A stretch of DNA of 64,000 nt from Methanosarcina sp. 2.H.T.1A.6 (GTDB taxonomy: Archaea > Halobacteriota > Methanosarcinia > Methanosarcinales > Methanosarcinaceae): positions 1 through 64,000 of the forward strand of contig NZ_JJOY01000003.1 in the NCBI RefSeq assembly GCF_000979455.1, written 5' to 3'. The position numbers and the translations under genes are program-made. Positions 12,973 through 15,673 of this stretch are shown here, in pieces (the first letter of the stretch is position 1; every line of letters begins with the position of its first letter). Below the pieces are notes generated by a model, which was not told the origin of the DNA, searched no databases, and saw only the letters and a list, made by a program, of their open reading frames with translations.

Positions 12973-13371
12973 ATGAAAGACTATGAAGTAAAAGTGCTGG
13001 ACGAAAATGACCACATTTTTATTGAAACGTTAAGGAACCTCGGGATGTCAAGAAATGTTGCCACAACTATGGCATATCTTATGAATGTTGATGAAGCTTC
13101 ATCCCGCGAAATTGAAATTAGTACCGGACTACGGCAGCCCGAAGTCAGTCTTGCGATGAGGCTGATGAAAAATCAGTCATGGGTCAACGTGCGTTCGGAA
13201 AAGAAACCCGGTAAAGGGCGCCCGATAAAGATCTATTCTCTTGCAGCTCCGGTTGATGAGATTATAAGCTATTATGAGGATAAGATCTACAAGGAATCTC
13301 AGGCAACGATCTCAGCAATTAAAAAACTGAAGGTTATGAGCAAAAAGGTGCCTCTTACTCCTTCGAAGTAA
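12973..13371 (+). CDS. mreA: TrmB-family HTH regulator, probable methanogenesis regulator MreA
   Basis: 132 residues. The start at 12973 is chosen because AAGGGG lies 7 bases upstream; a longer frame begins at 12952. The protein is essentially one winged helix-turn-helix: NVATTMAYLMNVDEASSREI, STGLRQPEVSLAMRLMKN (recognition helix) and a wing KPGKGRPIKIY, followed by a short helical tail. It lacks the sugar-binding domain of full-size TrmB proteins. MreA of M. acetivorans, a global regulator of methanogenic pathways, is such a short protein and, from memory, lies five genes from cysteate synthase, as here. The symbol rests on this synteny. Confidence 0.7.
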   Translation: MKDYEVKVLDENDHIFIETLRNLGMSRNVATTMAYLMNVDEASSREIEISTGLRQPEVSLAMRLMKNQSWVNVRSEKKPGKGRPIKIYSLAAPVDEIISYYEDKIYKESQATISAIKKLKVMSKKVPLTPSK

Positions 13372-13545: not shown

Positions 13546-13682
13546 CCCTCCCTTTCTGTCCCCTTCCTGTCCCCTTCCTCTGCCCCCTTCCTTTCTGATC
13601 CCCTTATTTTCTGATCCCCTTATTTTCTGATCCCCTTATTTTCTGATCCCCTTATTTTCTGGTTCCCTTATTTTCGGGTCTC
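13546..13682. repeat. 16-bp tandem repeats and C/T-rich low complexity
   Basis: From 13600 there are about five units of CCCCTTATTTTCTGAT or close variants, preceded by looser CCCCTTCCT-type repeats. It lies downstream of the TrmB-type gene. No gene is seen from 13372 to 13966; a 62-codon frame at 13355-13543 on the - strand is not convincing. Confidence 0.85.
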
Positions 13683-13966: not shown

Positions 13967-13986
13967 ACCTGCCTTAAAGAGCAGGT
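13967..13986 (-). terminator. terminator hairpin of the SAMP operon
   Basis: ACCTGC and GCAGGT form a 6-bp stem with an 8-base loop, read on the - strand from the SAMP stop codon and followed by a T-rich run. The stem begins at the last base of the stop codon. Confidence 0.6.
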
Positions 13987-14198
13987 CAGCCACCTGTTAC
14001 TACTTTAAGGATTGTTAGTCTATCGGAACTTATCGCCCCATCAAGGGGAACCGCATTCCCTCCATTTAATACAAGAACCGTTTCCTGATTTATGTCCAGC
14101 GTATCAAGCAGGTCTTCGTAGGTAGCGCTTTCAGCTACTTCTACGGTCTGTTCGGAAATATCTCCAGCTTGAATTGTTATGTGTACCTTTTTGCTCAC
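13986..14198 (-). CDS. small archaeal modifier protein (ubiquitin-like, MoaD/ThiS fold)
   Basis: 70 residues starting at GTG and ending in the exposed C-terminal GG (KVVTGG). The beta-grasp pattern is clear: a strand (KVHITIQ), a strand with EVAESATYEDLLDTLDI, VLVLNGGNAVPLDGAI, then DRLTILKVVTGG. Such SAMPs are adenylated by an E1-like enzyme and serve as protein tags (sampylation) or as sulfur carriers for tRNA thiolation or molybdopterin. No E1 is in the window. The GTG start overlaps the TGA of the upstream micro-gene (GTGA), so translation is coupled. Confidence 0.85.
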   Translation of the reverse strand: MSKKVHITIQAGDISEQTVEVAESATYEDLLDTLDINQETVLVLNGGNAVPLDGAISSDRLTILKVVTGG

Positions 14199-14323
14199 TC
14201 TATAGATCCACCGCCGCTTACCTGAATTTCGTCTACGACTTTCTTTATTAACTTCTGCTCCAGTTCATATTCTTTTCTGACACCTTTCCGTTCTGCATTT
14301 CTTTTCTGGAACTTTCCGGTCAT
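14195..14323 (-). CDS. 42-residue basic microprotein coupled to SAMP
   Basis: A complete frame from ATG at 14323 to TGA at 14197-14195. An excellent ribosome binding site, AAGGAGAT, lies seven bases before the ATG. The protein starts MTGKFQKRNAERKGVRKEY, is lysine/arginine-rich and helical in the first 30 residues, and ends VSGGGSIE. Its stop codon overlaps the SAMP start by four bases. I do not recognise a family. The strong leader and the overlap show that it is translated; a role as partner or substrate of the SAMP is a guess from context. Confidence 0.75.
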   Translation of the reverse strand: MTGKFQKRNAERKGVRKEYELEQKLIKKVVDEIQVSGGGSIE

Positions 14324-14830
14324 GTTCAAATCTCCTTACGATATTTCAGGTTTGCAACATAGTGGGTATAATCTCTCCAAGTAGACTCTGTTGTCTTTTC
14401 GAGATGTATATCCAATAATTATAATGATTTTCTGTTTTAATTAACTTTTTGGTTAACGATCCTTTTTTGATTAATTGCCCATATTTGGTTAACAAATTTT
14501 TGGTTAACATATAGTAATTTTCGAGTGTTAGGGCCGCAGTTTATCCTTGTTAGTGTAAAAAAGGGAGTGTTGACATAAAAAATAATCTCGTTCGAAATGT
14601 TGGCATAATAAGCTCCATGAATCAATTATAAAAGGAAACTTGAGAATATGTGGTCACGCGCTGAAGATATTATAGCATAATATCCGTATTTATATGGAGA
14701 TTTCCAAATGATTTATACTGATAAATCCAAATGATGTAAGCTCTTTATTAATAATTAGAGGTTTGAAGAGATACGCCTGATAAAGAGCACATAAATCTAT
14801 AAAAAAAGTTATATAATATGAAAATGGGCC
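14324..14830. other. AT-rich spacer between the SAMP operon and the tRNA cluster
   Basis: About 500 bases that must hold the promoter of the microprotein-SAMP operon. Short repeats of TTTTTGGTTAAC type occur around 14444-14512. A 62-codon frame at 14437-14625 on the - strand is made of these repeats and is not supported. Confidence 0.4.
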
Positions 14831-14907: not shown

Positions 14908-14979
14908 TACACCAGTCGGGATTCGAACCCGAGTTCGAGCGTTGGCAACGCCCGGTGATGACCGCTACACTACTGATGT
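14908..14979 (-). tRNA. tRNA-Gly (anticodon GCC), copy 2 of the tandem duplication
   Basis: 72 bases. Acceptor ACATCAG pairs with CTGGTGT; anticodon stem GGGCG/CGCTC with loop TTGCCAA gives GCC; T loop TTCGAAT. It differs from the copy at 15324-15395 by one base (14960 versus 15376). A first base of A rather than G is unusual for tRNA-Gly. Confidence 0.9.
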
Positions 14980-14991
14980 GCTATGTTTTTA

Positions 14992-15066
14992 TGGTGCCCA
15001 GACCCGGATTCGAACCGGGGACAACTGCCTCTTCAGGGCAGCGCTCTCCCACTGAGCTACCTGGGC
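14992..15066 (-). tRNA. tRNA-Phe (anticodon GAA), copy 2
   Basis: Acceptor GCCCAGG pairs with TCTGGGC, anticodon stem CTGCC/GGCAG with loop CTGAAGA gives GAA. The CCA end appears to be encoded (14992-14994), in contrast to the neighbouring Gly and Val genes. Confidence 0.93.
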
Positions 15067-15182
15067 AGGTAGATCTCATTCACTACGGAATCGCTCTTTA
15101 TGAATCAAGCTTTAAAAGAGATGTAGTGTTTTTGAATTTTACCTTCAGGAAAGATCTCCTGAAAATTTTAAGTATCTTTGAG

Positions 15183-15256
15183 TGGGCCCGCTGAGATTCG
15201 AACTCAGGACCTCCGCCATGTCAAGGCGACGTCATAACCGGCTAGACCACGAGCCC
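15183..15256 (-). tRNA. tRNA-Val (anticodon GAC), copy 2
   Basis: 74 bases. Acceptor GGGCTCG pairs with CGGGCCC, anticodon stem TCGCC/GGCGG with loop TTGACAT gives GAC, T loop TTCGAAT. No encoded CCA. Confidence 0.93.
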
Positions 15257-15323
15257 TCTAAGATGCGTGTTGTTTTTACTCCTTATAACAAGTGTACTTG
15301 AAATAAGGATTCTAAAAAAGTTA

Positions 15324-15395
15324 TACACCAGTCGGGATTCGAACCCGAGTTCGAGCGTTGGCAACGCCCGGTGATAACCGCTACACTACTGATGT
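15324..15395 (-). tRNA. tRNA-Gly (anticodon GCC), copy 1
   Basis: Same structure as the gene at 14908-14979 with one base change in the D-arm region. It is the last member of the first Val-Phe-Gly triplet in transcription order. Confidence 0.9.
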
Positions 15396-15407
15396 GCTAT
15401 GATTTTA

Positions 15408-15482
15408 TGGTGCCCAGACCCGGATTCGAACCGGGGACAACTGCCTCTTCAGGGCAGCGCTCTCCCACTGAGCTACCTGGGC
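15408..15482 (-). tRNA. tRNA-Phe (anticodon GAA), copy 1
   Basis: Same sequence as the gene at 14992-15066, again with an encoded CCA at 15408-15410. Confidence 0.93.
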
Positions 15483-15599
15483 AGGTAGATCTCATTCACC
15501 ACTGAATTGCTCTTTAAGAATCAATCTTTAAAAGAGATGTAGTGCTTTTGATTTTTACCTTTCAGAAAAGATCTCCTGAAAGTTTTGAGTATCTTTGAG

Positions 15600-15673
15600 T
15601 GGGCCCGCTGAGATTCGAACTCAGGACCTCCGCCATGTCAAGGCGACGTCATAACCGGCTAGACCACGAGCCC
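15600..15673 (-). tRNA. tRNA-Val (anticodon GAC), copy 1
   Basis: Same sequence as the gene at 15183-15256. It is first in transcription order, so the promoter of the whole cluster should lie to its right, where a TATA-like ATTTATATAA occurs at about 15734-15743. Confidence 0.93.

Follow-up and report, generated by a model that had tools for sequence, protein, structure and literature searches.

A conserved microprotein gene overlapping a SAMP2-family ubiquitin-like gene in Methanosarcina and related archaea

In Methanosarcina sp. 2.H.T.1A.6, the gene for a SAMP2-family ubiquitin-like protein is preceded by a gene for a 42-residue microprotein, and the stop of the first and the start of the second share 4 nt (GTGA). 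The pair lies within the 64,000-nucleotide stretch of DNA analysed here (the window), where both genes and their overlap can be read in the sequence itself. The microprotein belongs to a real and ancient protein family that is apparently undescribed. Since the two genes have travelled together across many methane-metabolising archaea and their relatives, the microprotein is probably a working partner of the ubiquitin-like system, a role suggested by comparison of genes and genomes. The reading favoured here, with a probability of about one half, is that it would act as an accessory factor of the sulfur-relay and sampylation pathway of SAMP2, E1 and NcsA, and be made in step with SAMP2. The new point is an operon for a ubiquitin-like protein (Ubl) that carries an undescribed conserved microprotein; sORF tables for M. 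mazei may already list the frame.

The microprotein gene occupies positions 14195..14323 of the minus strand, with an ATG start at 14323 and a TGA stop at 14197-14195, and its 42-residue translation (MTGKFQKRNAERKGVRKEYELEQKLIKKVVDEIQVSGGGSIE) contains seven lysines and three arginines. Its ribosome-binding site (AAGGAG, 14332..14337, minus strand) is preceded by a conserved TATA-box-like element (GGATATACATCTC, 14401..14413, minus strand) some 80-90 nt 5′ of the start codon, which is a putative promoter by position and sequence. Three GTTAACCAAA-type repeats are found upstream of this element (14455-14510 of the window, minus strand), and are possibly not functional because other Methanosarcina have one, two or none. 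Also upstream of the operon, at 14908-15673, a tRNA-Gly(GCC), tRNA-Phe(GAA), tRNA-Val(GAC) triplet occurs twice in tandem, a doubling shared by the sister genus (L031). The SAMP gene (13986..14198, minus strand) specifies 70 residues between a GTG start at 14198-14196 and a stop at 13988-13986. The earlier note on this DNA, which had claimed a 42-codon frame at 14195-14323 joined to the SAMP gene by a GTGA overlap, was thus accurate on both counts; the microprotein ribosome-binding site that it called near-perfect is present at 14337-14332 and is better rated as good.

The product of the SAMP gene matches SAMP2 (PF21965) with an E-value of 7e-17 and 62 bits against a Pfam cut-off of 27, and scores 57 against the corresponding NCBIfam equivalog, below its stricter cut-off of 70. 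The nearest solved chains are those of SAMP2 (4hrs and 2l32). The protein ends VVTGG and so possesses a C-terminal Gly-Gly, as do 101 of 158 relatives, the rest ending in QG, SG, AG, KG or extended tails. The C-terminus is SQG, SSG or SAG in Methanolobus and Methanotrichaceae and AGA in one genus, and SAMP homologues ending SQG, SSG or AGA behind the microprotein occupy whole genera (L035, L053, L101, L105, L032). The source genome has a single E1 (ThiF) gene and a single NcsA-type gene, and a search of it for a second SAMP2 found none. Convergent with the SAMP operon is a gene for an MreA-family transcriptional regulator (12973..13371, plus strand; NF053756, E 1e-45) that is syntenic from Methanosarcina to Methanotrichaceae and serves as a marker for SAMP loss. 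Tandem repeats of about 18 nt (CCCCTTATTTTCTGAT) lie between the mreA-like gene and the operon, at 13590-13670 of the window.

A protein search recovered the 42-residue frame from 80 of the family's 111 genomes; with a profile, the microprotein was detected in 203 of the 237 class genomes, and in 146 of the 150 good ones. Relatives that carry it include Methanolobus, Methanococcoides, Methanomethylovorans, Methanohalophilus, ANME-2, Argoarchaeum, Methanoperedens and Methanotrichaceae. Beyond the class, it is present in Methanocella-like genomes (f15), an Archaeoglobaceae-like family (f10), both tentatively so named, and a few others. Over 27 Methanosarcina copies that align without stops its dN/dS is 0.16 (bootstrap 0.06-0.34), that of the SAMP gene being 0.15, and the microprotein is under purifying selection. 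Residues K13, G14 and K17 (KGxxK) are the same in all 165 distinct sequences; at position 24, 161 have K and three have R. K13 and K17 are fixed while other basic positions exchange K and R. The predicted model is one helix spanning residues 7-36 (mean pLDDT 80), and the mean net charge of the copies is +4.7 over the first 18 residues and -4.7 over the remainder. The microprotein is thereby modelled as a single dipolar helix, with a basic N-terminal half bearing the invariant KGxxK and an acidic C-terminal half. Neither single sequences nor profiles gave a credible match in Pfam, NCBIfam or the PDB; weak matches were scattered, none better than E 0.0027 and each involving one to three members. 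Among the papers searched, none describes the microprotein or prints its peptide sequence.

The conservation of the pair at SAMP genes, for which the earlier note had proposed a search, is extensive. A SAMP gene lies directly behind the microprotein gene in 158 of 178 distinct copies, is fused to it in one and is missing from 15, the four unjudged copies being at contig ends; one locus scored as lacking SAMP (L032) has it by a separate search. An NTGA overlap joins 105 of the 158 adjacent pairs, with other junctions in the rest, and in Methanosarcinaceae the 4-nt overlap is the usual arrangement. The pair as such is kept across several classes of the phylum. The natural fusion, in which microprotein and SAMP form one frame in a single-contig genome of 1.07 Mb, has no match in the sole genus-mate (76% complete); having been seen only once, it may reflect a sequencing frameshift. 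A model of the fused protein, folded from an alignment of SAMP rows only because MAFFT misplaced fragments in a mixed alignment, did not place the helix confidently relative to SAMP (pTM 0.57, helix pLDDT ~70). Of the idea of a dedicated partner, then, the evolutionary tie to SAMP stands, and the accompanying claim that no partner or substrate of a SAMP had been described does not: NcsA of Haloferax binds UbaA and SAMP2 and is isopeptide-linked to SAMP2 at Lys204 in a UbaA-dependent manner (PMC4048286), and in Thermococcus three Ubls are conjugated specifically, Ubls there also carrying sulfur for tRNA and the tungsten cofactor (PMC11323500).

An accessory role is favoured because of this literature on SAMP2, NcsA and Ubls, the E1 and NcsA-type genes of the source genome, and the neighbours of the SAMP gene that point to sulfur relay. 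In Haloferax, tRNA thiolation needs NcsA (PMC4048286). A cysteine desulfurase gene adjoins SAMP in Methanocella-like loci, as MoaA does in Methanoperedens, and both are consistent with sulfur relay. The two genes would form one small operon and be read from one mRNA, microprotein first, and ribosomes ending the microprotein would re-start on the overlapping GTG or TTG of SAMP, whose ribosome-binding site sits in the last microprotein codons. Pairing with the 5′ UTR is predicted to keep this site closed in Methanosarcina and the sister genus as long as the microprotein has not been translated, and SAMP would then be made only in step with the microprotein. The finished microprotein might, for example, dock SAMP2, or a replacement Ubl, to an enzyme or tRNA partner.

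Three lineages have the microprotein with SAMP2 gone, two of them at the same syntenic locus. No SAMP2 lies behind six distinct copies in Methanohalophilus and five loci in Methanotrichaceae, part of each group, and the convergent mreA-family gene is still present in the eight micro-only loci examined in these two groups, which argues that SAMP was lost from between the microprotein and mreA. The earlier note had named an absent or decayed frame in syntenic loci as the outcome that would speak against it; in the broken syntenic pairs, SAMP was lost and the microprotein kept. In family f22, where a search of three genomes turned up no SAMP2, the microprotein lies beside tRNA-Ser(CGA), a placement shared with several deep lineages that have retained the pair. 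SAMP2 in turn is found without the microprotein in families f11, f18, f33 and f36, and since each gene occurs without the other, neither strictly needs its partner. In deep lineages, the microprotein and/or SAMP gene sits beside tRNA-Ser(CGA), on the opposite strand (L126, L127, L128, L130, L132, L133, L134, L136, L138, L144 and L147), an old syntenic association.

These broken pairs imply that the microprotein is more than a leader and more than a substrate of SAMP2. They also bear on the main rival to an accessory role, in which the microprotein would be a small protein that binds nucleic acid or the ribosome, has a house-keeping role of its own and is placed in an operon with SAMP2 for expression only. 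Such a protein could be expected to persist, as it does, next to mreA in SAMP-less Methanohalophilus and Methanotrichaceae and beside tRNA-Ser(CGA) in f22, and its N-terminal half is basic; it would not account for a pair kept across several classes and fused once. Moreover, the Methanohalophilus and Methanotrichaceae genomes searched have another, ThiS-like Ubl, encoded beside a second NcsA-type gene in Methanohalophilus and beside E1 in two Methanothrix-type genomes. Because most SAMP2-less lineages with the microprotein keep a ThiS-like Ubl beside E1 or a second NcsA-type gene, the link to the pathway survives, and an independent role is a possible reading that falls well short of an even chance. 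The microprotein could serve the Ubl that a given lineage happens to have, or it could have another target. The most elaborate form of the partner idea, in which an ancient family of dedicated trans-acting SAMP2 partners (adaptor, E2/E3-like helper or tRNA-docking subunit) is coupled to SAMP2 by an RNA switch and serves replacement Ubls after SAMP2 loss, appears doubtful.

The idea that the microprotein is instead a substrate, with SAMP2 attached to one of its lysines, draws on the fixation of K13 and K17 in all 165 distinct sequences amid K/R exchange elsewhere, and sampylation of proteins encoded beside Ubl genes was proposed in an earlier gene-context survey (PMC2948915). This reading is weakened by the micro-only lineages, in which the microprotein persists without SAMP2, and by SAMP tails of SQG, SSG, SAG or AGA instead of GG that are accompanied by unchanged microprotein lysines; a substrate role seems unlikely.

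The ribosome-binding site of SAMP (GGCGGTGGA, 14207..14215, minus strand) lies within the GGG codons of the microprotein and is invariant in the genus. The codons GGC GGT GGA show no base change in 27 Methanosarcina while the following codons vary, most simply because they are the Shine-Dalgarno sequence of SAMP. Other genera have GGTGGTGA or GGCGGTGA at this site, or GAGGAG, which gives an acidic tail, and several Methanohalophilus without SAMP have changed it to GGTGATGAA. The GGG tail, frozen in the genus and altered where SAMP is lost, therefore records a DNA signal and is not modifier-like. The ending GGGSIE, to which the earlier note had drawn attention, is correct as sequence; the Gly-Gly tail as a functional protein motif was rejected on the DNA-level freezing and the GGTGATGAA of SAMP-less Methanohalophilus.

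Synonymous change is also lower in the microprotein gene (pS 0.20) than in the SAMP gene (0.35; bootstrap difference 0.02-0.26), and its frozen synonymous stretches include the arms of a predicted RNA stem. A 5′ UTR element (CCCACTATGTTGCAAACCTGAAATATCGT, 14338..14366, minus strand) is predicted to pair with a 3′ arm inside the microprotein gene (14208..14232, minus strand), hiding the SAMP ribosome-binding site. The stem folds with a z-score of -1.97 (7 of 200 shuffles were as good), and the predicted unpaired probability of the SAMP site is 0.01-0.03 for most of the eight Methanosarcina tested, with 0.13 in one, and ~0.2 when microprotein codons are synonymously recoded. Over 31 sequences, 99.2% of cells are paired, and one pair shows a compensatory G-C to A-U change in three sequences; covariation is thin because most pairs hardly vary. 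The duplex of UTR and Shine-Dalgarno has an energy of -23 to -29 kcal/mol, compared with about -14 to -16 after UTR swapping, a control that is clear only in Methanosarcina and the sister genus g5, equivocal in g4 and mostly negative in other groups. With swap controls positive in two genera only, an RNA switch as a family-wide feature was rejected; a search of Rfam returned tRNAs only. Burial of the SAMP site would force translational coupling in Methanosarcina and its nearest sister genus. The translational coupling asserted in the earlier note is upheld as far as the conserved overlap and the SAMP site inside the microprotein gene are concerned, and its forced form is predicted for two genera.

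The predicted stem, with frozen synonymous sites in its arms, and the lower pS of the microprotein gene would also suit a cis-acting leader peptide, of which translation alone would count by opening the SAMP ribosome-binding site. A leader of this kind is quite improbable, given an amino-acid sequence kept across several classes where the RNA element is confined to two genera, retention of the microprotein where no SAMP follows, and its fusion to SAMP in one genome. Apart from its small size, nothing favours a chance open frame, which is refuted by the dN/dS of 0.16, presence in 203 of 237 genomes of the class and invariant residues and has practically no probability left.

Archaeal SAMPs connect the modification of proteins with the delivery of sulfur to tRNA and molybdopterin, and with the question of how ubiquitin arose. 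No E2/E3-like helper and no small protein dedicated to SAMP2 is, to our knowledge, established in archaea, and a 40-60-residue companion of SAMP2 in several archaeal classes is a concrete candidate that is genetically tractable in Methanosarcina. The pair also provides a case in which enforced translational coupling in archaea can be put to the test, and illustrates that gene-context surveys can miss very small genes. A Ribo-seq study of M. mazei discusses, among annotated small proteins, a 70-aa 'MoaD' that is probably, from its length, the orthologue of SAMP, in passages that mention no 42-aa partner, although the supplementary sORF lists may contain the frame (PMC11456600).

Three known systems invite comparison with the accessory factor proposed here. 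Pup is short and helical, with Gly-Gly near its C-terminus, and the microprotein resembles it in each of these respects. In contrast to the GGQ or GGE that ends Pup, the microprotein ends GGGSIE here and GGESTD, GGEDFEE or LPEEE in other copies, so that its GG is not terminal, differs from lineage to lineage and is accounted for by the ribosome-binding site of SAMP; a Pup-like modifier was rejected because the GG is not terminal. The Ubl neighbourhoods described in the main text and table of the 2010 survey include a TRAM protein in Pyrococci and ribosomal S17 with a small protein, arCOG07188, in Sulfolobales, and are similar in that a small protein gene, sometimes for an RNA-binding protein, stands beside a Ubl gene (PMC2948915). 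They differ in that this text and table give no dedicated micro-gene partner for the ThiS/SAMP genes of methanogens (PMC2948915). The Haloferax volcanii system of SAMP2 (HVO_0202), UbaA and NcsA differs in that the microprotein was not detected in phylum families with weak SAMP-profile matches, which are taken to include haloarchaea; what the two have in common is a SAMP2-family gene with a C-terminal GG in a genome with one E1 and one NcsA-type gene.
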